From a bacterium (GTDB taxonomy: Bacteria > JAMCPX01): DNA of 58,103 nt. Below, in pieces: positions 14,490 to 55,820 of the stretch. Where the stretch lies: assembly GCA_021787665.1 (NCBI GenBank), contig JAJYLN010000016.1:1-58103 (forward strand), given 5' to 3'. Made by a program: the position numbers and the translations under genes. The stretch's first letter is position 1. Every line of letters starts with the position of its first letter. The notes under the pieces are model-generated. The model made no database searches and was not told the origin of the DNA. It saw nothing but the letters and a program-made list of their open reading frames with translations.

Positions 14490-14519
14490 GAGGCGGTGCC
14501 GTATGCGCCTGAGCATCAG

Positions 14520-14543
14520 AATATATACCAGGAACCATATATT
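14520..14543. promoter_or_regulatory. Dyad AATATAT-N10-ATATATT
   Basis: A perfect 7-bp inverted repeat with a 10-bp spacer (ACCAGGAACC) lies 30 nt after the regulator stop and about 140 nt before the -35 box of the surface cluster. That distance suits an upstream activator site. The gap 14490-14795 holds no gene, only this dyad, the A-tracts and a promoter. Confidence 0.4.
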
Positions 14544-14612
14544 GATTCAATCCGTAAACGCTAAAACCATGCGGAGGGGGCAGGACAGGAGATTCCGGTG
14601 CGCAGGTCCTTG

Positions 14613-14686
14613 AAAAAAAAGCAAAAAAAAGTCAAAAAAAAGGTCAAAAAAAAGATCTTGACAAGCGCATCCCTGTTTGGTACGTT
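14613..14686 (+). promoter_or_regulatory. Phased A-tracts and promoter of the surface-protein cluster
   Basis: Four runs of exactly eight A start at 14613, 14623, 14634 and 14646, spaced 10, 11 and 12 bp, close to one helical turn, which predicts intrinsic bending. Four bases later comes TTGACA (14658-14663), a 17-bp spacer and TACGTT (14681-14686). The A-tracts can also act as an UP element for RNA polymerase. The leader to the ATG at 14796 would be about 100 nt and includes AAGGAGG. Confidence 0.6.
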
Positions 14687-14795
14687 TACATCAAAGCCAG
14701 TTTATGTTTGAACAATTAAAGGCGAAAGCCTTTGCAGATAGATGAATTACGGAATCAGTACAGAGGGAAGAATAAAAAACTTAAGGAGGTTAAGT

Positions 14796-17636
14796 ATGAA
14801 GGTCAAAAGGGGCATTAAACTCTTGGTTGCGGCTGCGGTTGCGTTCGCAGGGGTTGCAATCCTTGGTAATGCTAAAAATTCCTATGCAGCTCTCCCGGAG
14901 GTTGACAGCTATACGTTCCAGGTGAGTGTTACGAATAGTATGCTGACATACCTCGACACGCAGGTGTACAACATCCTGACGTCGCCTACCGTCACGACGA
15001 TGATCCAGAGCCTGATCACCAACGCATTTACGGACGGGACCACGGGCGCACCGAAGGCACTGGTAGACACCTGTCTCAGCATTCCCCTCGTGGGAATGAC
15101 GTGTATTGCTGTCTATATCGAGGACTTCGATAATGACGGCGTCGTCTTTACGTACACGGTACCGTCCAACGGCATCGTACTTGCAGCGACCCCGGGAGGC
15201 GCCTATGTGAACGCGCCCCGCGGCACACTCTCGGTTGGCATTAACCTCGCCAACGTGAAGCTCGATGTCTCGCTGTACACAGGTACGGCGTATACACAGA
15301 CGGCGGGCGCAACGGTGACCGACTATGTGCTTGCTTCTGGTCAGGCGATGGTACCGAACATCTCCCTGGCCCTCGATATGGCGGTCATCGGAGGTAATTT
15401 ATCGACCTACGATCCGACCGAGGCGAACCCGATTACATGGCCGACCCTCCACGGAAACCCGCCCAACCCCATGCCGGGCACAGAGGTCGGTATCCGGGTG
15501 GTCGGTGCTGATATCGGCGTCGGCTTCCATTTCGGTCTAACGCCTTCAGCTACCACCGGGCTGGTAAACGAGGGGCTCTGCACCTCGGCGTATGCTTCCG
15601 GCTGTCCGAACGTGCTCGTGAACGACGGAAGTGAATGTTATAAGTCGTGTCTGGTGTCGTCCCTTATCCCGTACATCGATGCGCAGTTCAACATCCATGC
15701 GGCAGATAACTTCAATGCAGCGCTCGAGTACTACCTCGGACCGACCATGCTCCTCGATGCTGCAACACTGTTGACATCCACGATCACGGACCCGCTGACC
15801 GGCGGTGGGATCAGTATCAATGCTGGCTTCTTCTGGGACTTTACCGCGACCAGCAATGGCTTCAATCTCTACCCAGGCGGTCTCGGGCTTGCCTTGTCAT
15901 ACACCCTCGGTACCTGCGTTACGCAGCCCGTGGGCGCAAAGCCTATCACTGATACCGTAAGTCTGGCACCCTATCTTCTCGGTGCGACGACGCCGAACGG
16001 CCAGCCCTACATGCTCGGGCTCCTGATACACGAGAACCCCCTGTCTGAGCTGCTGTACAATGTCTACACGGACGGTATCCTGTGTATGGACTTAAACAAC
16101 AATACGCCGATGATTGGCTCGCTCCTCGGTACCCTCTTCTCGACGAGTATATTCGGTCTGCTCTTTACGCCGCTCAATACGTACTATCCGAACAGGCCCA
16201 TGCAGATAGAGGTGGTACCGACGCTGGTAAATCCGGCATCGCTTACCTTCAACAATAATATCGATACCCCGTACATTGAGACCGGGGCAGATATAACGAC
16301 CTCGAACCCGGCATTGACGTTCCCGACGACCACCGTCGGGCCTGCAGGGACGAACGGATCGCTCGTCGTGGGCATTCCGCACCTGCTCCTTAACTTCGAC
16401 GTCGATACGACCGGGACGGGCACGTACAACAGGGTGTTCGGCCTTGACCTTGGCCTCACGGCGGGTATCGGTATATCCGTATGGACCGATCCGACGCTGC
16501 CGACATGGGGCACCGGGAGCCCGACAGGAAGAGTAATAAGGATATTGATGGGGGACACTCCCACGGTCAATTCGTATATTCCTTATTCAGCGGCCATCCC
16601 TGCTACCGTTACCGGTATGGCGCACATCCTCGGCGAAGTTCTGCCGACGATTCTGACAGCGGCCATCAACGGCAGACTCGACCTTGCGATAGATATCTAT
16701 CCGCTCCTCGGCATTACCTTTACGGTTCCGTATATCGGAACGACTGGACCTCTGGATGCGAGAGGCCTTCCGAGTAATCTGGGTGCGTTTGTAGGACTGG
16801 AGTACAACCTGGATCCGGGACTCGTGTTTTCGCTCCTGGACACGCTGGGTCTGTCTCTGACCTCCCTTACCAGCGGCTTGAAACTGGACGCGCCGCAGTT
16901 GAGTGGCGTGCAGCTCGGTATGCCGTACCCTGTAGTATATGCGAACGTGGGAGACGTCAGCGGATCGAACATCGTCCTCAACGCGAAGCAGACGAGGGAG
17001 GCAGGAATGACTGCTTACTCGTCCGTCATAGACCTCTCTTCGTACGAGGCGAACGGACAGAACCCGGGCATCGCCTACAGCTACAGTCTTGACAACGGCC
17101 CGTGGAGCTTCCTGAGTCCGTCAGGCCAGATCGCCCTGAGCGACCTGTACGAGGGCAAGCACACGATCGAAGTGCAGGCAGTCGACTCCAATATGGTGAT
17201 GTCTGCCAACACCGCAAAAGTCAGCTTCGACATTGACTCGGTACCGCCGACACTCTCTGTGGCGGGTCCGCAGGGTGTCGTGAACGGGAGCAGCGCGACC
17301 TATGTCGTCGACGCCTCGGACGCACAGACACCGGCTGATCAGATAACGGTGTCGTACAAGCTCGACAATAAGTCGTGGAGCATACCGACGACCGATAAGG
17401 ATATCACCCTGAGCGGGTTGACTTCCGGAAGTCACACGGTCGAGATACGCGCATTCGATCTTGCCGGCAATGCAAGTCAGGTAACGGCAAACCTGAATAT
17501 CGCGAATGGTGTGAAGGCAGGGTTCTTCGGCTGTTCGACTGCGGACAGCGGGAACGCCGGTATACCGGCCATGCTGATCATACTGCTTGCTCCGCTCGCG
17601 TTCGTGATTGTACTGAAGAGAAAGACTGTTAGATAG
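14796..17636 (+). CDS. Large exported surface protein A (possible BPI-like/TULIP fold, Ig-like domains, C-terminal anchor)
   Basis: 946 aa from ATG at 14796, preceded by AAGGAGG; an in-frame ATG at 14742 lacks a site. Signal peptide of about 31 residues ending NSYA. The body (about 32-720) is hydrophobic and beta-rich with amphipathic helices (VSVTNSMLTYLDTQVYNIL; LSELLYNVYTDGILCMDL; HILGEVLPTILTAAI) in the order seen in the two barrels of BPI-like lipid-binding proteins; this fold call is inference. Two Ig-like repeats follow (about 745-905, each with a SLDNGPW/KLDNKSW strand and DSVPPTLSV between). The tail has Cys in GFFGCSTADSG, one membrane helix, and LKRKTVR, resembling MYXO-CTERM sorting tails. 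Full-length paralog of the protein at 20366-23848. A strong terminator follows. Confidence 0.8.
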   Translation: MKVKRGIKLLVAAAVAFAGVAILGNAKNSYAALPEVDSYTFQVSVTNSMLTYLDTQVYNILTSPTVTTMIQSLITNAFTDGTTGAPKALVDTCLSIPLVGMTCIAVYIEDFDNDGVVFTYTVPSNGIVLAATPGGAYVNAPRGTLSVGINLANVKLDVSLYTGTAYTQTAGATVTDYVLASGQAMVPNISLALDMAVIGGNLSTYDPTEANPITWPTLHGNPPNPMPGTEVGIRVVGADIGVGFHFGLTPSATTGLVNEGLCTSAYASGCPNVLVNDGSECYKSCLVSSLIPYIDAQFNIHAADNFNAALEYYLGPTMLLDAATLLTSTITDPLTGGGISINAGFFWDFTATSNGFNLYPGGLGLALSYTLGTCVTQPVGAKPITDTVSLAPYLLGATTPNGQPYMLGLLIHENPLSELLYNVYTDGILCMDLNNNTPMIGSLLGTLFSTSIFGLLFTPLNTYYPNRPMQIEVVPTLVNPASLTFNNNIDTPYIETGADITTSNPALTFPTTTVGPAGTNGSLVVGIPHLLLNFDVDTTGTGTYNRVFGLDLGLTAGIGISVWTDPTLPTWGTGSPTGRVIRILMGDTPTVNSYIPYSAAIPATVTGMAHILGEVLPTILTAAINGRLDLAIDIYPLLGITFTVPYIGTTGPLDARGLPSNLGAFVGLEYNLDPGLVFSLLDTLGLSLTSLTSGLKLDAPQLSGVQLGMPYPVVYANVGDVSGSNIVLNAKQTREAGMTAYSSVIDLSSYEANGQNPGIAYSYSLDNGPWSFLSPSGQIALSDLYEGKHTIEVQAVDSNMVMSANTAKVSFDIDSVPPTLSVAGPQGVVNGSSATYVVDASDAQTPADQITVSYKLDNKSWSIPTTDKDITLSGLTSGSHTVEIRAFDLAGNASQVTANLNIANGVKAGFFGCSTADSGNAGIPAMLIILLAPLAFVIVLKRKTVR

Positions 17637-17705: not shown

Positions 17706-18938
17706 ATGAAGCTTCTGCACAGAGTATATAGTGTATCCATCCTGAGTATCGCCGTACTGATATCGTGCGGGAGAAGTTTCCAGCAGAAGACTACCAACCC
17801 CATCGGAATCCCCATGCAGACCCGTATTATCGACTCCGGGAGCGGTGTAGGCATCTATCCGTCGCTCGGCTACAGCTCGTCCGGCGTTCCCTATGTATCG
17901 TATCAGGACAGCTCGACCGGCACCCTGAAACTTGCATGGCTCGACATTACCGGTCTGTGGGACAACGTGGACGTTGCAGGAGGGAATGGGTATGTGAATG
18001 CCGGCTCCTTCGACTCCATGGACATAGCGAACGATACGTATTACATCAGTTATTTCGACCCACAAATACACGGCCTCGAGATGGTCAACGGGCCGCTGCC
18101 GGTGGTAGAGGCGCCTCTGTACCCGGCTGTCATCACGCTCGACAAGCCGACGAACAGCACCTATTCTGCGGGCGTCTATACCTCCCTGAAAATGGGGCCG
18201 GGCGGCACGGCCTATATAGGCTACATGGACATCCTCGGATCGGACCCTGCCAAGATCTATGGAGCCTATCCGCGGTTCATCACGTGGACGCCCTCCGGGC
18301 CCTCTGCGCCGGAGGTCGTGGATCCGGGCATGGAAGGGAAGGCATTCTCGGTCCCTCTCCGCAGCGTTGCCTGCTCGACCTCCCTGGCCGTTGCAAAGGA
18401 CGGCACGGTTTGGCTTGCCTATTACGACGTGTTCGACAGGGAACTGAAGATTGCCAGTAAGAAGGTCGGCGGGACGTGGACCTCGCAGGTCGTGGACACG
18501 TTCGGGGGTATCGAGGGCGACGGCGAGTATCTGAGCCTCGCGCTCGATAGTAAGGGCTTCCCGCACCTGTCCTATATCGACGATACGTACGGCGTCACGA
18601 GGGCGCTGAAGTATGCGTGGTACGACGGCACGACTTTCCATACGGAGGATGTGGACAGGGAGTTCGGCGTGATGTACGGGCCCAACTCCCTGGTCATGAA
18701 CCCGTCGTCGGAGCCGGTGATAGCGTATTTCGACGAGACCTTCAATGACCTGAAGATCGCGTTCCAGTACAACGGCGGATGGTACACCTACGTCCTCGAC
18801 ACGGCCCTGCTGTCCGGCGAGTACCCGTCACTGGCCCTCGCACCCACCGGCGTTCCGACCGTCGCGTACCGTCAGTACGCGCCGGGGTTTCAAAGGGTTA
18901 CGCTGAAGTTCGGTATCATTGACTACAATAATCTATGA
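17706..18938 (+). CDS. Lipoprotein with seven propeller-type repeats (1)
   Basis: 410 aa. Lipoprotein signal VSILSIAVLISC with Cys at residue 21. The mature part is seven repeats of about 50 residues with the core S-L-x-hydrophobic-x-x-x-G-x-P-x-V/I-x-Y-x-D followed by an LK-A strand (for example SLALDSKGFPHLSYIDD and SLALAPTGVPTVAY). The count of seven suggests a closed beta-propeller, which is inference. There is no clear ribosome site and the ATG stands in the tail of the terminator, so it may be expressed by read-through or from a promoter I cannot see. It overlaps the next gene by 4 nt. Function unknown; likely anchored in the outer membrane. Confidence 0.8.
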   Translation: MKLLHRVYSVSILSIAVLISCGRSFQQKTTNPIGIPMQTRIIDSGSGVGIYPSLGYSSSGVPYVSYQDSSTGTLKLAWLDITGLWDNVDVAGGNGYVNAGSFDSMDIANDTYYISYFDPQIHGLEMVNGPLPVVEAPLYPAVITLDKPTNSTYSAGVYTSLKMGPGGTAYIGYMDILGSDPAKIYGAYPRFITWTPSGPSAPEVVDPGMEGKAFSVPLRSVACSTSLAVAKDGTVWLAYYDVFDRELKIASKKVGGTWTSQVVDTFGGIEGDGEYLSLALDSKGFPHLSYIDDTYGVTRALKYAWYDGTTFHTEDVDREFGVMYGPNSLVMNPSSEPVIAYFDETFNDLKIAFQYNGGWYTYVLDTALLSGEYPSLALAPTGVPTVAYRQYAPGFQRVTLKFGIIDYNNL

Positions 18939-20215
18939 AAATGAGGCAGGGAACATACCAGAACATAATCCCCGTTTTTTCGTGCAGAGAAGAGGGGGCG
19001 GAGCGGCCAGGCTTTGCAGCGCGCCTCCGGCACCGTATCCGCGCTGCCGGGACCGCCGCGGCATGCACCGTTATCTTTGCCGTGTCCCTGCTCGCGGGCT
19101 GCGGCAGGCCGGGGAACCTTACCAGCTCAAATATCCTGCCGGGAGTGCTTACCTATACCATCGACAGCAGCGACGATACCGGGTACTTTACCTCCCTCGC
19201 TATGGATGCCAACAACAACCCGTGGATCGCCTATTACGACAATACGGCCGGGGCACTCAAGCTCGTGCATTATAACGGCGCGAGCTTCGTGACCGAGGTG
19301 GTCGACGACAGCGGCGATGCCGGCTGGTATCCCTCGCTCGCGCTGGATGCGAGCGGCGAACCGCATATAACCTACTACGACGCAAAGGACCGGGACCTGA
19401 AATATGCGTATAAGACGCAGCAGGGCTGGGTCATCAATACCGTGGACGACCTGAATATCGGCGGGTACGGCGAGTATTCCTCGTTAAAGCTCGACGTCGC
19501 CGGCAACCCGCATTTCTGTTACATTACCCACGTCCTCAATGACGAGCTGCGGTACGGCTTCGTCACGACGCAAGGCTTTGTGCTCCAGACCGTGGACAGC
19601 GGCCAGTCCATTTTGCCGACCACGGGCACCGGTAATATCGATATGACGACCTCCCTGCAGCTTCTGCCCAACGGCAGCCCGGTGATAAGCTATTACGATG
19701 CCTCGAACGGCATCCTGAAGATGGCGCAGTACGACTCGGCGACCCAGACCTGGAACGATCAGGTCGTTGCCGATGGCTCGGAGCTGCCCTCCCCGGGCAA
19801 TTTGCCGCCGTCGAGGGACGTGGGGATGTACAACTCTCTGGTGCTGGACGGCGACAACAATCCGCACATAAGCTATTACGACGCGGACTACGGCACGCTG
19901 CGGTACGCCTATTTCAACGGCGTCATATGGACGTACCAGTACATCGATCCGAAGGGCTTTACCGGCGCGTACAACTCGATTGCGCTCGACCAGTCCGGCA
20001 ACCCGGTCGTGGCATATCAGGACGTGACCAACGGGGCCGTGAAGATAGCATTCGACCAGAAAGGATCGTGGAAGACCTACTATATCGATAGCTCGAACTA
20101 CTACAGGACCGGCTACTGGATCAGCCTGGCAATAGCCGGAAACAACGGCATCGGGATCAGCTACCGGAACGCGACTACTCATGCGCTCGTATTTTCATTT
20201 GTCAATTATTATTAG
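18935..20215 (+). CDS. Lipoprotein with seven propeller-type repeats (2)
   Basis: 426 aa, paralog of the previous gene, starting at an ATGA overlap. The N-terminus is unusually long for a lipoprotein signal: about 45 residues, rich in Arg, before the hydrophobic run and lipobox SLLAGC; a later start may be used, though none has a good ribosome site. Seven repeats again, more regular than in the first protein (SLALDASGEPHITYYDAKDRDLKYA; SLVLDGDNNPHISYYD; SIALDQSGNPVVAYQD). Probably a seven-bladed propeller exposed on the outer membrane. No catalytic motif recognised. Confidence 0.82.
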   Translation: MKMRQGTYQNIIPVFSCREEGAERPGFAARLRHRIRAAGTAAACTVIFAVSLLAGCGRPGNLTSSNILPGVLTYTIDSSDDTGYFTSLAMDANNNPWIAYYDNTAGALKLVHYNGASFVTEVVDDSGDAGWYPSLALDASGEPHITYYDAKDRDLKYAYKTQQGWVINTVDDLNIGGYGEYSSLKLDVAGNPHFCYITHVLNDELRYGFVTTQGFVLQTVDSGQSILPTTGTGNIDMTTSLQLLPNGSPVISYYDASNGILKMAQYDSATQTWNDQVVADGSELPSPGNLPPSRDVGMYNSLVLDGDNNPHISYYDADYGTLRYAYFNGVIWTYQYIDPKGFTGAYNSIALDQSGNPVVAYQDVTNGAVKIAFDQKGSWKTYYIDSSNYYRTGYWISLAIAGNNGIGISYRNATTHALVFSFVNYY

Positions 20216-20365: not shown

Positions 20366-23300
20366 ATGAAGCTAAAATATATCTTGCTCGGCGCGGGCTC
20401 GTTGTTGGTGCTGCTCCTCGGGAGTGTGATCTTACTGTCTGCGAGCACACGGTTTTCCATCGGTCATTATTCGGTAAGCATCCTCGATATCATAGAGTCC
20501 GAACTCCACAGCTCGCTCGTGCCAAAAAAGATCGCGCAGACCGTGCCGGTGATAGACACCGCTGCAAAGACGGGCACCCAGGCCGGGAACGGCGGGGGCT
20601 TGGTAGAGGTGGCGCAGGAGCTTCAGAACGCACAGCAGCCCATCACCCAGAACGGCGCTATTGCACCGGTGCGGCCTGCGTACACCAAGCAATCATATCA
20701 GCAGGTGTTCAAGCAAGGGTTCGATTTCGAGAGGGCCCAGATCCTGTCATCGACCACGCAGCCACAGGCCGCGGCTCAGCCGCAGCTCACCCCCCAGGGC
20801 CTGCCGGACAACTATAGTACCGACGGCGTGATGCCGGACGGCCTGGTCGTACGGCTTACGAACAATGCAATCGCCGCACTCCCGGCGCAGCTCGCGAACA
20901 TGCTGGAGAGCCAGTATATCAATCAATATTTGAACGCTGCCATCGTGACACAGACCTTTTCCGGCAACTTCTGCTATGCCGAACCCAACTGGACGTGTCC
21001 GTTCAAGTGTCTCGGCAATTGCGGACAGTGTTCCGGTAATTCCTATACCCTCACCGGCTGCGGGGCAGGGGCCATCAATGCCTGCAACAGCGGCCAGACC
21101 ACGACCTGCAGTTGGTCAGCGGGCACGTCGACTTGCGGCGTGACAAATTCATGCTATTCCTGTCAGACTACAGGGCAGACATGGCAGTGTACGTCCAACG
21201 GGGGGTACCCGAGCGATTGCTGCGGCTCTGTCCCGTACGGAGGAGAGATCACCGACAACTGTCAGCCATCTGCGTGTGCCTTGCCTGCCAATGACGGCAT
21301 CGTCCTGTACTACGACAAGGCCGCGGTCACGATCGCCCAGAACCCCATAACCTGCCCCGGCTATGCGCCGGCAACGCTGAACATCTCTATAGTGCTGAGC
21401 TACGACGGCATTACGCCGTCATGGGCGCCTGTCCAGCCCTGGCCCACCTGCAGCAACCCGAACGGCAACGGCAGCCCGCCCATTGCGGTCGGGGACATCA
21501 ACTATACGGCAACATTGCCGGTCATCGGGACCATGAGCGGCAACGGCTATGCTGCGGCGAACGAGATCGACATCCAGGCCTACGCGACCCCGGCCATCAC
21601 CACCGGGACGACCACATGGGGCCCGGACACGACCCTGAGCTTTACCGCGGCCGGCGTCGGCGTTTCGTCCGTGACCATGCCGGGGTTCTATGTGACCCTG
21701 ATAACCTGGTCGTGCTCCATCTTCGGATGGGACCCGTGTTTGGACTATCTCGACCCATGGCTCAATGGCATGATATCCGGCATGGCGCAGGGCATGGTCC
21801 AGAGCGCCGTGACCAGCATGCTGAACGCCCAGCTTGCCAAGATGCTGAACTCCGCTATCGGTCTGCCCCTCGACCTGAATTCCAAGATAGGGAACCCCTT
21901 TACCCTCGGGACGAACTGCTATCTGCTGGGGCTATACCCGGAGCCGAACTGTACCAGTCAGCTCGGGTACAGCGGCATGTATGGAGACTGTTACGGCCTC
22001 AAAATAGCGCTCGACTTCGGTATGCTCCCGGCCATCTATACGCCGTATTATAATGCGGGCAACGCGTGCGACAACTCGTGCGTCGATACCACGAGCTTTA
22101 ACCCGGTGAACGTGCTGCTGCAGAACCCGCCCACGACCGGCGTGAATGTCGCTGCGAACGTGTTCAATAACGATACCGTGCCCAGCGGCTCATACCTCTA
22201 TGGCGGCACCTCCGTTCCGATTCCCTGGTCCGGCTACCCGTACGACCTCGGCATAGGTCTGTCTCAGGACGTGCTCAACGAGCTGTTATATGACCTGTAT
22301 ACCTCCGGGCTTACCTGTATCAACATCAATGTCAATTCGTTCCCGTCGCTCGCATCGATGCTCAACGTCAATGCCTTCAAGGCCATCGTTCCTGCGATTA
22401 CGGACATAGCTGACCCGGGTACCTATGTCTCCATAGCGCTGGTGCCGAGGTCGTCCGGCTCGAACACCCCGCCGCCCATATACGCGCAGTTGGGGCATAC
22501 CTTGTCCGTGAACTCGTTTGCCGCAGGCTCGACGTGGAGCTCCGGGACCGGGTATAATCAGTCGAACTCCCTGACCACGAGTATGATCTATGCCGACATA
22601 CCGAACTACCAGATAGACTTCTATGCCACCGTGGGCGGCATACCGGAGCGGATGTTTACCCTGAACTGGAACCTGCAGGCCGGCGTCGACGTGAACTATC
22701 TTGTCCCCACGCCCTTGGGCGGCAACGGAGAGCCCACGACGTTCGGCGTGCTCCACCTGGGGGCCCTCCTTGTGCCGCAGATCAATGGCATCACCAACAT
22801 ATACCCGGGCATAACGCCGTACATGGCGCACGGCATCTCGCAGTTGATCCCGACCATCCTGTCCGCTGCGATAGGCACGACGATCAATATGCCTATCAAC
22901 CTCGGGGCGCTCGGCATCAACGTGGGGTTCTGGTACATAGGCCCTGACCCGGAGGCAGTTGATGCGGACGGCAACGGCACGCCGGACTTCCTGTCGATGT
23001 ATGCGTACGCGTACGGGAACCTGAACTGGAGCGCCATACTGCCCTCTTCACAGTATAATGCCCTGACGACACAGGGCGCGCCGCGTGCGTACATCGTGGT
23101 GCCCAACGGCAGCGACGTGGGCCTTGCCCCGGGTCCCCTTGCGCTGGGGACACTGAACGTCGACGGCAAGCAGTCCAAGCAGCTCGGTCTCCAGCCGCTC
23201 AACAGCACGATAAATTACGTGGGCTATGATCCCATGGACTACAATGCGCCCCTGGAATACACCTACCGGATCGACGGCGGGCTGTGGTCGCCCTTCACGG

Positions 23301-23848
23301 TGTCCACGCAGGCAGAACTGCCGTACCTGACCGAGGGTGTGCATACCTTCGAGGTGATGGCGAAGAACGAGGGCGGGTTCTCGAACCTGACGCCAGCATG
23401 CCTCACCTTCCGTGTGGACTCGGTCCCGCCGACGCTGTCGGTCAAGAACATGAAGAACGGGGCTGTGGTCGGTTCGGACGTGGAGATCGATACCAAGGCA
23501 TGGGACTATCAGACCCCGGCAGACCAGATCGCGGTCAAGTACAGCCTTGATAACGGCGCGTTTAAGACCGTGAGCACGTCCGGCAGCGGCAGCTCGCGGA
23601 TATTCCTCGATGAGCTTTCCATGGGACAGCACCAGGTGGTCATTACGGCCACGGACAGGAGCGGCAATACTTCGAAACTCGACCTCGCCTTCGTATCGAA
23701 GGCATCGAGCAGTATGGGGTGCGGCTGTGCAGGTACACGCCCGGCAGGCAAGGGCGACGACCTCGGCATGCTGCTTCTGGTGATGTCTTTTATGGCAGCG
23801 CTGATGCTGAAGAGAAGGCTTGCTTACCAGAAGCACGCGGCAAAATAA
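20366..23848 (+). CDS. Large exported surface protein B (paralog of A, with a Cys-rich insert)
   Basis: 1160 aa; GGAAGGAGGG lies before the ATG. N-terminal hydrophobic helix (about 5-28) with no obvious cleavage site, so it may be a signal anchor. Residues 30-160 are polar and Gln/Ala-rich. DGLVVRLTNNAIAALPAQL opens the first barrel-like part, in the style of BPI proteins. Residues about 208-310 are a Cys-rich insert with 16 Cys, including the segment CPFKCLGNCGQCSG, absent from A. LNELLYDLYTSGLTCININ and GISQLIPTILSAAI correspond to the segments in A. Two Ig-like repeats near 945-1110, then GCGCAGT, a membrane helix and KRR: a MYXO-CTERM-like tail. TULIP assignment is inference. Confidence 0.8.
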   Translation: MKLKYILLGAGSLLVLLLGSVILLSASTRFSIGHYSVSILDIIESELHSSLVPKKIAQTVPVIDTAAKTGTQAGNGGGLVEVAQELQNAQQPITQNGAIAPVRPAYTKQSYQQVFKQGFDFERAQILSSTTQPQAAAQPQLTPQGLPDNYSTDGVMPDGLVVRLTNNAIAALPAQLANMLESQYINQYLNAAIVTQTFSGNFCYAEPNWTCPFKCLGNCGQCSGNSYTLTGCGAGAINACNSGQTTTCSWSAGTSTCGVTNSCYSCQTTGQTWQCTSNGGYPSDCCGSVPYGGEITDNCQPSACALPANDGIVLYYDKAAVTIAQNPITCPGYAPATLNISIVLSYDGITPSWAPVQPWPTCSNPNGNGSPPIAVGDINYTATLPVIGTMSGNGYAAANEIDIQAYATPAITTGTTTWGPDTTLSFTAAGVGVSSVTMPGFYVTLITWSCSIFGWDPCLDYLDPWLNGMISGMAQGMVQSAVTSMLNAQLAKMLNSAIGLPLDLNSKIGNPFTLGTNCYLLGLYPEPNCTSQLGYSGMYGDCYGLKIALDFGMLPAIYTPYYNAGNACDNSCVDTTSFNPVNVLLQNPPTTGVNVAANVFNNDTVPSGSYLYGGTSVPIPWSGYPYDLGIGLSQDVLNELLYDLYTSGLTCININVNSFPSLASMLNVNAFKAIVPAITDIADPGTYVSIALVPRSSGSNTPPPIYAQLGHTLSVNSFAAGSTWSSGTGYNQSNSLTTSMIYADIPNYQIDFYATVGGIPERMFTLNWNLQAGVDVNYLVPTPLGGNGEPTTFGVLHLGALLVPQINGITNIYPGITPYMAHGISQLIPTILSAAIGTTINMPINLGALGINVGFWYIGPDPEAVDADGNGTPDFLSMYAYAYGNLNWSAILPSSQYNALTTQGAPRAYIVVPNGSDVGLAPGPLALGTLNVDGKQSKQLGLQPLNSTINYVGYDPMDYNAPLEYTYRIDGGLWSPFTVSTQAELPYLTEGVHTFEVMAKNEGGFSNLTPACLTFRVDSVPPTLSVKNMKNGAVVGSDVEIDTKAWDYQTPADQIAVKYSLDNGAFKTVSTSGSGSSRIFLDELSMGQHQVVITATDRSGNTSKLDLAFVSKASSSMGCGCAGTRPAGKGDDLGMLLLVMSFMAALMLKRRLAYQKHAAK

Positions 23849-23865
23849 GCAAACAGGGAAGAGGC

Positions 23866-24891
23866 ATGGTCGGGCAAGCGGCCGTTGAGGGAGTGCCCGG
23901 AGCAGGTAATGAACGGTACCGTATGGTGGACGCAGACCGACAGAAAGACCTGATTACCCGGCGCCTGCGTGCATCGTACTATCCCTATAAAACCGCGACA
24001 TCCGAGTTCTTCCTTGGACATTTCCTCAAGCAGTTCAAGGGCATAGCATGCGTCTTCATGTACGGCTCGATGCTCAACCCGGGGCTCTCCACGCCCACCA
24101 GCTTCCCGGACTTTTATATCGTCGTGGACCGTTATGCAGGGTTCTACGGCTCGCGCGTGCACACGCTCCTGAACAGGTTCCTGCCCCCGAACTCCTATTT
24201 CCTGAGGCTGAGCGAGAACGGCACTCCCCGGCCGTCGAAGTATTGCGTGATCGATCGGCAGGACCTGTACCGGTATACCCACTACCCGCATATCAAGGAC
24301 TTCTTTATCGCCGGCAGGCTCGCGAAGCGCATCGCCATACTCTATGCGAAGGACGATGAATTCCTGGCGGAGTTTATCGGCAGCATCTACCAGGCGATGC
24401 GCTTCAATGTCATGTTCGCCCTTTCGGAGCTGTCGTATGCCGGGGCGTACGCAGACGGCTTCTCGTTCGACGATTTTATGATCCGGCTGCTCGGTCTGAG
24501 CTACCGGGCCGAGATCAGGACCGAGACACACGACAAGATAACGAGCCTGTATACCGGCGAGAAGGAGTTTTACCGGGATATCTACAGCCAGTTCCTCGAG
24601 CAGGAGGTACAGGACCGGACCGTAGAGAGGACAGGCCGGGCCTACCGGACCATCAGGCCTTACTTTACGCCGGCATATATGGCAGGGTTTATCAGCAGGA
24701 GCAGGAGGAGGGCCGTGTACCGGTGGCCCAAGAGCATCTACACCTTCAGCAATTATGTCGACTATCTCGTCCTGAAGGTGGAGCGGACGACCGGGGAAGA
24801 GCTGCGGCTGTCGCACTGGGACCGCAGGCTGCCGCTCGTGTTCGGCTGGAGGCACCTGTTCCGTCTGCTCAGGAAGAAGGCCATTAAATAG
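23866..24891 (+). CDS. Tam41-like nucleotidyltransferase (possible CDP-DAG synthase)
   Basis: 341 aa from ATG at 23866 with AGGGAAGAGG in front; the frame is open further upstream inside the preceding gene but that part is shadow. CVFMYGSMLNPG followed by PDFYIVVDRY matches the GS...DxxVVD nucleotidyltransferase core of the Tam41 family, the mitochondrial-type phosphatidate cytidylyltransferase. The C-terminus (TTGEELRLSHWDRRLPLVFGW) is typical of bacterial homologues usually left as hypothetical. If correct it would make CDP-diacylglycerol at the membrane. It starts 17 nt after the surface protein B gene and converges with the DedA gene 9 nt away. The link between a phospholipid enzyme and putative lipid-binding surface proteins is suggestive only. 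Confidence 0.65.
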   Translation: MVGQAAVEGVPGAGNERYRMVDADRQKDLITRRLRASYYPYKTATSEFFLGHFLKQFKGIACVFMYGSMLNPGLSTPTSFPDFYIVVDRYAGFYGSRVHTLLNRFLPPNSYFLRLSENGTPRPSKYCVIDRQDLYRYTHYPHIKDFFIAGRLAKRIAILYAKDDEFLAEFIGSIYQAMRFNVMFALSELSYAGAYADGFSFDDFMIRLLGLSYRAEIRTETHDKITSLYTGEKEFYRDIYSQFLEQEVQDRTVERTGRAYRTIRPYFTPAYMAGFISRSRRRAVYRWPKSIYTFSNYVDYLVLKVERTTGEELRLSHWDRRLPLVFGWRHLFRLLRKKAIK

Positions 24892-25504: not shown

Positions 25505-26344
25505 TCAACGTGCCGGCGTCCTGCTCCTGATGAGCTCGATGTGCTTCGAGACCGCTTCCTTGCCCCGGTGGATGAGCAGCGGCACCCTCTCGAAATCGAA
25601 CGGCCCTATGTCGTGCACGTCCGGGGCGATGATGACATCCGCAAACCGCAGCCTCTCCATGCGCGTCTCATTCACGATCACCTGGATGCTCTTCGTTATG
25701 ACGTCGAAGATGTTCGTCGGCTCCTTCTTGAGTTGTTCCTTGTTCACGAGCTCCACGCCTATGACGAAGTCGATCCCCCGGATCTTCAATATCTGGCAGG
25801 GCACATCCGTGAGCAGGGAGCCGTCCACATAGGTGTGGCCGTCTATCTTCATGGGTACGAAGATACCGGGTATGGCGCTGCTCGCCATGACCGCGTCCGC
25901 GACGCTCACGTGCTCGAACAGATGCGGCGCGGCTGTCGTCAGGTCCGTAGCAGGTATGTAGAGGGGGATAGGCGCATCCTCGATCTTCGCATCCCCGAGA
26001 AACTCGCGGACCAGCGCGCCGATGCCCTCGGTCGAGGCGAGCCCCATCCTCGGTACCCGCAGCTTCAATATGTCCGACATGCGGAGCTTCTCCGCGCGTG
26101 CCTTGATCCGCTCGAGGCTTATCCCGAAGGCGAACAGGGCCGCGACGATACTCCCGGCTGACGACCCGGCCACCGCGTCTATCGTAATGCCTTCCTGTGC
26201 GATAGCTTCGAGCACGCCGATGTGGGCAGTGCCCCATACGACGCCCCCGCCCAGGGCGATCCCTATGGTCTTCGCCCTTTCTTTCTTTATGAAGGATCTC
26301 AGCCTGTTCAGGATAGGGATTCTTCTCGATTTCCTTTCTTCCAT
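25505..26344 (-). CDS. Patatin-like phospholipase
   Basis: 279 aa from ATG at 26344; the open frame extends upstream into the SpoIID gene without a good start. Catalytic Ser in GSSAGS, oxyanion loop GGGVVWG, and the dyad Asp in VDGSLL, the full patatin set. No signal peptide, so it should act in the cytoplasm or on the inner leaflet, hydrolysing acyl esters of lipids (RssA-like). The start has no clear ribosome site and is 5 nt from the upstream stop, so coupling to the SpoIID-like gene is likely. Confidence 0.92.
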   Translation of the reverse strand: MEERKSRRIPILNRLRSFIKKERAKTIGIALGGGVVWGTAHIGVLEAIAQEGITIDAVAGSSAGSIVAALFAFGISLERIKARAEKLRMSDILKLRVPRMGLASTEGIGALVREFLGDAKIEDAPIPLYIPATDLTTAAPHLFEHVSVADAVMASSAIPGIFVPMKIDGHTYVDGSLLTDVPCQILKIRGIDFVIGVELVNKEQLKKEPTNIFDVITKSIQVIVNETRMERLRFADVIIAPDVHDIGPFDFERVPLLIHRGKEAVSKHIELIRSRTPAR

Positions 26345-26349
26345 GACAA

Positions 26350-27510
26350 TCAGTACAGCTTCTCTATGCGGACGCCCGTATAGTAAAAATGGATGATCTG
26401 CCGGTAGGTGTAGCCTTTTCTCGCCATCCCGTACGCTCCCCACTGGCACATGCCCACGCCGTGACCAAAGCCCCTCCCCTTAAAAAACAGTGTCCCGTTC
26501 TTTGCGCGGACATGGAACAGGGTGCTCCTGAGCTTATCGTACCCTACCACCGAACGCAGGGTGGCACCGTCGAGATCGATGTTGCCGTGGTCCGTGACGA
26601 CCCTTGCGACGGTGACCCGCTGCGTCCTGCTTCTCTTCATTACCCTGAAACCGTACACGTGGGACAGGGTATACCCCTTTACGATCAGTCTCCGGGCAAG
26701 CTGCTGAAGGGAGAGGGCGTATTTCCAGTTTAACCCTGGCGCCCCTTTGCAGAAGTTGCATTTGACCGATCGCAGGTACGGGTAACGGTAGCCAATAGCG
26801 TCCTCAGAATTCTCAGTCTCGCCGCCGCACTCGGAGTGGTACATAGCGAGGATCGGCTTGCCCTGGTAGGTGATGATCTGGCCCCGGGTAGCGTTGACGG
26901 CCTTCCAGCCCCTGCTGTCCTCGGAGCCGGCGCCGCTGTACACCTGGTCCATGAAGTCGGCCGCCATGTCGTAGTATTGGTTGAGGTGGCGCTCCTTCTG
27001 CCACAGCGCGTAGGTCCTCGCCACGACGGCCTGTGCTTCGAGAGCCTCCAGGGGCCAGTTGTGCGGCATCTCCGCATTGACGAGGCCTGCCACATAGGAC
27101 TCGAGGTTGACGACGTCGATGACCACGAGGTGGCTGTTGTCTATGTTCGCTATCTCGAGGTGGCCCCGCAGGAGCCGGTCGTTTATCTTCACCACGCCGC
27201 CGGAGAACAACAGCGTCACCATGCGTGCGGGATACAGTTTCCGATCCACCACCAGGCCGTTGTTGCCCGCAGACAGGATGAGGTAGGAGTAGCCGGGGTT
27301 CCTGAACAGGGCGAGGTTCCGGTAGGTGTCGATGATCTGAATGCCTTTGCCCTCTATGTGCAGGGTGGATGCATCGCCGAATATCTCGACCCGTATCCCC
27401 GGTACCGTGCCATTCCCGGAGACCATGGACGGGGCAAGAAGCACGGCGGCGGCCAGGGCGCATGCCCGGACGATGGCTTTCCCGGTGATAGTCCTTCGCA
27501 TGTCGCCCAT
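26350..27510 (-). CDS. SpoIID/LytB-domain protein
   Basis: 386 aa with a signal peptide (hydrophobic 14-28). SpoIID core: LVNAEMPHNWPLEALEAQAVVARTYAL cut to its key part AEMPHNW..EALEAQA, and near the end GRGFGHGVGMCQWGAYGMA. Family members are lytic transglycosylases or amidase enhancers acting on denuded peptidoglycan, and they occur in non-sporulating diderms. Position 3 before the GQWGA motif is Cys where Ser is common. First gene of the minus-strand set; the divergent gene at 27587 shares the upstream region. Confidence 0.9.
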   Translation of the reverse strand: MGDMRRTITGKAIVRACALAAAVLLAPSMVSGNGTVPGIRVEIFGDASTLHIEGKGIQIIDTYRNLALFRNPGYSYLILSAGNNGLVVDRKLYPARMVTLLFSGGVVKINDRLLRGHLEIANIDNSHLVVIDVVNLESYVAGLVNAEMPHNWPLEALEAQAVVARTYALWQKERHLNQYYDMAADFMDQVYSGAGSEDSRGWKAVNATRGQIITYQGKPILAMYHSECGGETENSEDAIGYRYPYLRSVKCNFCKGAPGLNWKYALSLQQLARRLIVKGYTLSHVYGFRVMKRSRTQRVTVARVVTDHGNIDLDGATLRSVVGYDKLRSTLFHVRAKNGTLFFKGRGFGHGVGMCQWGAYGMARKGYTYRQIIHFYYTGVRIEKLY

Positions 27511-27586: not shown

Positions 27587-29065
27587 ATGGCACCTTTTAG
27601 CGATTCAGGAAATGTTGGCAGCCCCCGGCTCGTTACGGTCTTGAACAACATCGCGACAAAGAGGCTCGAGGGCATCTTGCGGGTAGAATTGGGTAAGTTC
27701 AAGAAAGAACTCTACTTCAGGAACGGCCTGCTCGTGGGCGGCAGGTCTAACATTTTGAAAGAGACCTTCGGCAGGGTGCTGTACGAGAACGGGTTCATCA
27801 ACCAGCAAGACTATAAGGACTCCCTGAAAGAGGTCATGGAAGAGCGGAAGAAACATGGGCTTGTGCTGCAGGAGCGCGGGCTGCTCCCGCTGAACATCAA
27901 GGACGCATTGAAGCTGCAGCTCCGCATGAGGTTCGTCTATACCTTCAGTATGGTGGAAGGGAATTTTCATTTCAGGGAGGCCCACGTCCCGGACAATCTC
28001 ATAGTGCCGTGCTCGCTGCCGGTGATGGTCCTCGTCATGGAGGGCATCAAGATACACCTGCCGAAGAGCGCTGTGTCGGAGTACGTGAACAAAAGGATGG
28101 ACCTGGTGTGTGCGAGAGGCGGCTCGCAGTATGATCCGTCTCAGGTGAGCCTGTCACAGGAGGAATTGAACCTGCTGACGATAGTTGCCTCCAATAGGCC
28201 GCTCAGGCAGTCCCTGGCGGGTGTACGGATGGATGCCGATGACGCGATGAGGCTCCTGTTCCTGTTCATCGGCATGGGGTTCGCCGTATTGAAGGACCTG
28301 CAGCGGGAGTCGCCCGAGAAGAAGGCGGTGCCGCTGTCGGAGGAGCACCGGAAACTGCTGGAAGGGTTCAGAGACAGGCTCGACGATATGAAAGAGAAGA
28401 ACCATTACGAGGTCCTGGGTGTGGCCCAGGGTGCGGACAGGTCCGCCATAAAGAAATCATACTTTGCGCTTGCGAAGCAGTATCACCCTGATCACTTTTT
28501 CGATTATCCGGCGGAGGTCAGGGAGGCGGCGTCCGAGGTCTTCACACGCGTGACCACGGCATACGAGGGCTTAGCGGACGACGGCGAGCGGAGCAAATAC
28601 GACGAGTACCTCAAGTCCGGCGAGAAGGAGATAAAGAACAACGAAGCGGAGAACATCGTGAATGCGGAGCTGCAATTCCAGAAGGGCATGATACTGCTCA
28701 AGGCGAACAACTTCAAGGACGCGTACCAGAGCCTCAAGTGGGCCGTGGATCTGAACCCCACCGAAGGAGAATACCTGTCGTATTTTGGATGGGTCATCTT
28801 CAGACTCGAGCCTGACTCCGACGCGGCACGGGCAAAGGGTATAGAGTATATCCAGAGGGGCCTGCAGTTGAACAAGGAGCAGGACACGGGCAACTATTTC
28901 CTCGGCAGGATACTCAAGGTCAAGGGCGAGGAGCAGAAGGCGCTGGAGGCCTTCAAGACTGCCTATGCGAAGAACCCGCAGAACATCGATGCCCTGAGGG
29001 AGATACGGGCGTACGAGCTCTCGCAGAGGAGCCAGAAAGGCATGTTCAAGAAATTCTTTAAATGA
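27587..29065 (+). CDS. DUF4388 (PATAN) - DnaJ - TPR protein
   Basis: 492 aa. N-terminal DUF4388/PATAN-like domain (about 10-130: LEGILRVELGKFKKELYFRNGLLVGG), a middle region, a J domain at about 270-345 with the HPD triad (AKQYHPDHF), and C-terminal TPR helices (about 365-485). The J domain should stimulate an Hsp70; PATAN domains occur with two-component and signalling proteins. The combination is known in Desulfobacterota and myxobacteria, where it is not assigned a function. It lies 15 nt before ilvE. Confidence 0.88.
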   Translation: MAPFSDSGNVGSPRLVTVLNNIATKRLEGILRVELGKFKKELYFRNGLLVGGRSNILKETFGRVLYENGFINQQDYKDSLKEVMEERKKHGLVLQERGLLPLNIKDALKLQLRMRFVYTFSMVEGNFHFREAHVPDNLIVPCSLPVMVLVMEGIKIHLPKSAVSEYVNKRMDLVCARGGSQYDPSQVSLSQEELNLLTIVASNRPLRQSLAGVRMDADDAMRLLFLFIGMGFAVLKDLQRESPEKKAVPLSEEHRKLLEGFRDRLDDMKEKNHYEVLGVAQGADRSAIKKSYFALAKQYHPDHFFDYPAEVREAASEVFTRVTTAYEGLADDGERSKYDEYLKSGEKEIKNNEAENIVNAELQFQKGMILLKANNFKDAYQSLKWAVDLNPTEGEYLSYFGWVIFRLEPDSDAARAKGIEYIQRGLQLNKEQDTGNYFLGRILKVKGEEQKALEAFKTAYAKNPQNIDALREIRAYELSQRSQKGMFKKFFK

Positions 29066-55804: not shown

Positions 55805-55820
55805 TGCAATTCGCGTGCCA
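55805..55820 (-). promoter_or_regulatory. Sigma-54 (-24/-12) promoter of sod
   Basis: Read on the minus strand: TGGCACG-CGAA-TTGCA, an exact match to the sigma-54 consensus TGGCACG-N4-TTGC(A/T). Transcription would start near 55794, about 15 nt before the sod ATG and just ahead of the AAGGAGG. Sigma-54 control of superoxide dismutase is unusual. Confidence 0.75.

Follow-up and report, generated by a model that had tools for sequence, protein, structure and literature searches.

A bacterial BPI-like TULIP protein with Ig-like domains and an anchor-type tail, and its relatives in other bacterial genomes

The gene cluster and the architecture of protein A

The window, which is the whole stretch of 58,103 nucleotides that was analysed, comes from an uncultured bacterium and contains a cluster of genes for a long predicted surface protein (protein A), two propeller-like lipoproteins and a paralogue of the first protein (protein B), the features of which are collected in Table 1. 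The coordinates originally given for protein A proved exact and the open reading frame is real, as judged from its ribosome binding site, its orthologue and the HMM matches compared with shuffled sequences described below. The AAGGAGG sequence 5' of the ATG at position 14796 supports a start at this position, and the stop codon ends at position 17636; a start at 14742 was rejected, as the longer reading frame is a mechanical extension only. The family has an orthologue in a second genus (contig G004:C31), which is 60% identical over residues 1-943 and of nearly equal length, which confirms that this is a genuine gene, and it is located in the same gene order.

Table 1. Coordinates of the protein A gene cluster in the window, with the predicted parts of protein A
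Feature	Position	Strand	Description	Basis
Ribosome-binding site of protein A	14782..14788	+	AAGGAGG	read directly from the DNA
Protein A	14796..17636	+	946 aa; predicted tandem TULIP protein of the BPI type; Ig-like stalk, then an anchor at the C-terminus	
Putative signal peptide	14796..14888	+	residues 1-31 (about), ends ...NSYA	hydrophobic N-terminus, by eye
N-terminal domain	14892..15968	+	residues 33-391, probable TULIP (BPI-N-like)	HMM match
C-terminal domain	15969..16895	+	residues 392-700, TULIP domain, BPI-C-like	profiles, HMMs, model
Two Ig-like domains	17028..17510	+	residues about 745-905, OmpL47-type/Big_13/Y_Y_Y-like	sub-cut-off matches
Putative sorting/anchor tail	17529..17633	+	Gly-Cys 912-913, hydrophobic stretch, basic end KRKTVR	
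Propeller-like lipoprotein 1	17706..18938	+	410 aa, lipobox LISC	
Propeller-like lipoprotein 2	18935..20215	+	424-426 aa, lipobox LAGC	BNR_4 above cut-off
Protein B	20366..23848	+	1160 aa; paralogue sharing the C-domain, Ig-like and tail parts of A; Cys-rich N-domain	

The comparison with BPI in the original prediction leaves out the last 200 residues of protein A, which are made up of the Ig-like domains and the membrane anchor. The matches of the Ig-like region to Pfam Big_13 (4.1e-5) and Y_Y_Y (3.5e-5) and to NCBIfam barrel_OmpL47 (1.5e-8) are all below the respective cut-offs. In the tail, G912 and C913 are invariant in 11/11 aligned sequences, including one that is truncated by the end of its contig. 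The tail resembles that of the MYXO-CTERM and Synerg-CTERM surface proteins in having a cysteine, a hydrophobic stretch and a basic C-terminal end, but it falls below the cut-offs of these models: Synerg-CTERM scores 11.6 bits against a cut-off of 22.5 (NCBIfam), and there was no MYXO-CTERM match among the NCBIfam models listed for protein A. Since an export signal, an Ig-like stalk and an anchor tail come together in one protein, we infer that protein A would be exported and held at the cell envelope by its Cys-TM-basic tail.

Protein B is 30% identical to protein A over 588 columns (E 4e-40), and its residues 148-612 form an unusual cysteine-rich insert with 25 cysteines, versus seven in the N-domain region of protein A. 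The order protein A, lipoprotein, lipoprotein, protein B is also present in G004, with the gene for protein B doubled. The two copies (L031, 5125-8241 and 8497-11622 of G004:C31) are 87% identical overall and seemingly identical from mid-protein to the C-terminus, which suggests a recent duplication or gene conversion. Directly 3' of the protein B gene in the window, the gene at 23719-24891 (+) matches PF09139 (Tam41, mitochondrial CDP-diacylglycerol synthase; 30.2 bits, cut-off 24), and hence a Tam41-type lipid-synthesis gene adjoins the lipid-binding cluster; further downstream are genes for a patatin-like phospholipase (25505-26449, -) and a DUF4388-DnaJ-TPR protein (27587-29065, +). With regard to the upstream region, A-rich near-repeats (runs of a interrupted by gc, gtc or ggtc) are located at 14610-14660, between a regulator gene and the gene for protein A. 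Because this upstream regulator is of the NtrC type, a sigma-54 promoter was considered and rejected, as there were no sites in 14490-14795, and the window as a whole has 19 sites versus 21.6 expected; the sole mismatch-free match in the window to the pattern used is at 55805-55820 (-).

Profiles and a predicted structure link the C-terminal domain to BPI

The original prediction was that protein A may be a bacterial BPI-like protein of low identity, based on four segments which correspond to residues 43-57, 416-433, 464-483 and 610-624. BPI was not among the matches listed for protein A in a single-sequence search of the PDB, and thus the link to BPI runs via its relatives. The PDB profile searches covered 177,635 distinct PDB sequences, in which a profile of 11 C-domains (A2) gave two matches only, both BPI (E 0.016), and a profile of 30 bacterial C-domains (A5) matched BPI only (E 9.7e-5). 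The C-domain of the relative L081 on its own matched BPI residues 256-429 with an E-value of 0.014. The near-invariant glycine and proline positions of the family C-domain lie within the stretch aligned to BPI, and the alignment of the family profiles falls exactly on the AGVL and PNMKIQI segments, which the original prediction had cited as features of BPI. The BPI-like pattern is thus borne out, with the family profiles matching proteins of the BPI fold only.

The same relationship is visible with the Pfam model PF02886 (cut-off 23 bits), which was proposed as a check together with PF01273, and which gave 12.9 bits (E 0.074) for the whole of protein A and 15.1 bits (E 0.016) for its C-domain alone; this part of the check thus gave a match below the cut-off, and PF01273 was not among the Pfam matches listed for protein A (E<=1). 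The orthologue of protein A matches PF02886 at 6.4e-4, in L081 the match covers positions 40-234 of 238 (1.4e-8), and two relatives are above the cut-off with 38.6 and 37.6 bits. By Pfam's own cut-offs, protein A is therefore outside PF02886 and close relatives are inside.

A template-free AlphaFold2 model of residues 388-735, made from a six-row alignment, had a mean pLDDT of 56.6 and a pTM of 0.52. A Foldseek search with this model gave BPI (2.3e-5), LBP (two chains) and CETP as the top four rows, down to 7.7e-4, followed by SPLUNC1. In VIA-align, which is a second look at the Foldseek matches only, the model matched BPI with a Z-score of 11.3 (203 residues, rmsd 4.8 A, chain residues 246-454, which is the C-domain), followed by LBP (10.6), CETP (8.8), P47 (6.4), SPLUNC1 (6.3) and YceB (6.0), and rows 1-23 were all TULIP or P47/OrfX proteins. 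There was no match at E <= 0.001 when the model was compared with a viral structure library. With this modest confidence the model would not suffice alone, and it is decisive for the C-domain when taken together with the profiles: protein A belongs to the TULIP (tubular lipid-binding) superfamily, in which long curved strands and two helices make up the barrel, as they do in the BPI C-domain, and its residues 392-700 (approximately) form a domain of the BPI/LBP/CETP type. This upholds the proposed BPI-like TULIP assignment, as no other PDB entries match the model of the C-domain as well as BPI, LBP and CETP do.

It is very improbable that protein A is a member of a previously described bacterial TULIP family (YceB/DUF1439, DUF4403, DUF2140, DUF2993 or P47/OrfX2). 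The P47 and YceB scores do place it in the same superfamily by structure, and YceB/DUF1439 and P47/OrfX2 share the TULIP barrel with its C-domain, but BPI, LBP and CETP score well above both. By sequence, no model for these families, DUF4403, DUF2140 and DUF2993 included, was among the Pfam matches listed for the 30 C-domains (hmmscan, E<=1, which misses remote relatives), whereas PF02886 was listed for 8/30, with a best E-value of 5.4e-10.

The N-terminal half and the tandem arrangement

The N-terminal half was studied with the alignment A7, which contains both halves of eight compact relatives, without proteins A and B. These relatives are 8/30 of the A5 set and were chosen for compactness, and A8, A9 and A10 are likewise chosen subsets. 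The A7 profile gave ten matches in the PDB up to E 10, all with the BPI fold, with only BPIFA1 following after BPI and LBP. BPI was matched at 2.1e-11 (profile 9-445 to chain 5-428) and LBP at 1.4e-10 (profile 11-474 to chain 11-465), and the compact relatives are thus predicted to be colinear with BPI and LBP over both halves, at nearly full length. The corresponding HMM matches protein A at 4.5e-14 and protein B at 2.6e-13. Among 900 shuffled copies of protein A, protein B and G4A none was better than 0.15, and the best other of the 228 open reading frame segments of the window reached 0.093. As the match of protein A is far below both controls, its resemblance to BPI is more than chance, which suggests that protein A may be colinear with BPI overall.

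An HMM of the N-domains of the eight compact relatives (A6) matches the N-domain of protein A with an E-value of 1.7e-4 (best of 960 shuffles 0.34), starting at residue 38. In the PDB, the matches listed for A6 were LBP (0.14) and BPIFA1 (0.19-0.69), without any other fold. PF01273 was not among the matches listed for the N-domains of eight relatives (E<=10), only 36 columns could be aligned when the profiles of A-type N-domains and A6 were compared locally, and an internal-repeat test gave no useful similarity between the N-domain and C-domain profiles. A match of B-type N-domains to the C-domain profile in iteration 2 was set aside as partly self-inflated, one such segment already being in the profile.

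We consider it quite unlikely that the N-terminal half is an unrelated domain, which would make protein A a single BPI-C-like barrel with additional domains. The weak match of A6 to LBP, the place of PF01273 outside the listed matches and the 36 columns are what such an arrangement would give, and the full-length AlphaFold2 model of protein A, made from the six-row alignment, has a mean pLDDT of 39.7 and lends the N-terminal half no structural support. Against this, the A6 match begins at the mature N-terminus, where the first domain of BPI begins too, and the compact relatives align in order with both halves of BPI and LBP. The N-terminal half of protein A is therefore probably a second TULIP domain. 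The full-length model was not used for the barrels, and its Foldseek matches to Ig and fibronectin proteins stem mainly from the C-terminal Ig domains. Of the two-barrel protein that was originally proposed, the C-terminal barrel has structural support and the N-terminal barrel relies on HMM matches. Likewise, the suggested comparison of a predicted structure with BPI worked for the C-domain and not for the full-length model.

Relatives, lipoprotein partners and a possible role in lipid handling

The A2 profile has a match at E <= 0.001 in 25/386 genomes, including 6/9 genomes of the phylum of the window. In the same 386 genomes PF02886 matches three, two of them above the cut-off, all at loci found with A2 and one being the orthologue of protein A; it matches 0/14 control genomes. 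A7 matches are present in 7/7 genomes of the phylum of G187, mostly at full length and with at least two per genome, and weaker A7 matches are present in 2/2 genomes of the phylum of G158. Where the relatives come from named records, these are metagenome bins, and one bears the label Candidatus Dadabacteria. A scan of contigs with protein A alone found no relative and the same scan with alignment A3 found four loci; no relative was found in viral contigs. In one phylum with several copies per genome, the TULIP pair of the relatives L081, L091, L094, L098 and L100 is preceded by Ig-like domains and stretches rich in Asp, and some of these proteins are lipoprotein-like.

With regard to the neighbouring lipoproteins, a relative of the propeller-like lipoproteins was found on the fetched stretch of 9/29 other TULIP loci, in five families (numbered as by the tool), and the pairing of TULIP and propeller genes recurs in other phyla. 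In the phylum of the window, TULIP and lipoprotein genes are both present in 5/9 genomes (always on the same contig), the TULIP gene alone in 1/9 and neither in 3/9. The genome of the window has only two copies of the propeller-like lipoprotein, both in this cluster. Members of the lipoprotein family are found apart from TULIP genes as well (G321 has 72 matches), and since the family is abundant elsewhere in larger genomes, the pairing with TULIP genes is specific only in some lineages. A lipobox regular expression flagged the longest downstream reading frame for 9/30 TULIP genes (A, G22b, G51a, G56b, G196_247, G158_3, G296_44, G022_55 and G042), and on visual inspection the genes that follow G4A, G22a and G51b are lipoprotein-like too.

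In BPI and LBP, a cationic N-terminal tip grips LPS. By charge count such a tip is absent from residues 32-391 of protein A, which contain 6 Lys plus Arg versus 26 Asp plus Glu (net -20), and residues 32-700 contain 13 versus 47. BPI-like binding of LPS by this acidic protein is unlikely, and its very low Lys and Arg content makes neutral lipids or phospholipids likelier than an electrostatic grip on LPS. TULIP barrels, as described in a review, hold lipid in a hydrophobic pocket and carry it through water (PMC5507252).

With the fold of the C-domain established by the profiles and model, we favour the overall reading (rough probability 0.75, fold included) that protein A would be a surface-anchored tandem TULIP protein that binds or hands over lipid together with a lipoprotein partner, such a partner being suggested by the co-encoded lipoproteins. 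The barrels would hold the acyl chains of lipids in hydrophobic pockets and the Ig-like stalk would keep them away from the membrane, with protein A taking lipid up or passing it on, either on the outer surface or within the periplasm. Its substrates may be neutral lipids or phospholipids, like those of CETP and PLTP, the propeller-like lipoproteins may be its partners in lipid handling, and its paralogue protein B could have the same role with another ligand or in another direction.

The TULIP domains, with the BPI fold in the C-terminal half, might also have become adhesive or structural modules of a surface protein without lipid transport, which we regard as unlikely. Surface adhesins typically have large inserts, Ig-like domains and a tail of the sorting type, all of which are found in protein A, and in some relatives the TULIP pair is preceded by Ig-like domains (in L081, Big_7 and Glucodextran_B), but the barrel pattern is kept in relatives that have no Ig-like domains (L083, 465 aa and cut at a contig end, and L099, 510 aa), and the barrel is the part common to the whole family.

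Compared with the BPI/LBP/CETP/PLTP family (PF01273 plus PF02886), protein A shares the fold and sequence profile of the C-domain, and the compact relatives share the full N- plus C-domain order and length, whereas protein A is bacterial, strongly acidic and below the PF02886 cut-off, and differs further in its large inserts, its pair of Ig-like domains and its membrane tail. In the available passages of the literature on this superfamily, Levine's 2017 review names YceB as a prokaryotic TULIP (PMC5507252), and his 2019 paper names P47, OrfX2, YceB, DUF4403, DUF2140 and DUF2993 as bacterial TULIPs (PMC6791001); the family of protein A is not among the bacterial TULIPs in those passages. The DUF4403 proteins are described there as pseudo-dimeric and bacterial, with two TULIP domains in tandem (PMC6791001), and protein A is likewise bacterial and probably has such a tandem, but the link to BPI reported here is by ordinary HMM E-values, and not by HHsearch probability, for which 63% is the strongest eukaryotic-bacterial TULIP link given in the same passages (PMC6791001). 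A literature search by title, covering few subscription papers and no bioRxiv preprints, found no description of bacterial BPI/LBP-family proteins of this kind. We class these bacterial proteins as a sister group to the BPI/LBP/CETP family.

In the same passages, the question of where the BPI/CETP family came from is left undecided, with the known bacterial TULIPs being too distant to choose between convergence, transfer and common descent (PMC5507252, PMC6791001). Because the bacterial family can be aligned with BPI and LBP by HMM over both domains, this question becomes testable with trees and structures. As a tentative proposal, BPI-type tandem TULIPs may be old and widespread bacterial surface lipid carriers which are closer to the eukaryotic BPI/LBP/CETP family than the described bacterial TULIPs are, and which may have been its source (or be a clear case of transfer), forming a two-part lipid-handling unit with an adjoining propeller-like lipoprotein gene in several candidate phyla. 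The well-known animal BPI/LBP family thus has little-noticed relatives in several bacterial groups, which probably carry lipid at the cell surface and would provide a bacterial and genetically tractable version of proteins known mainly for their part in human immunity and in the transport of cholesterol.
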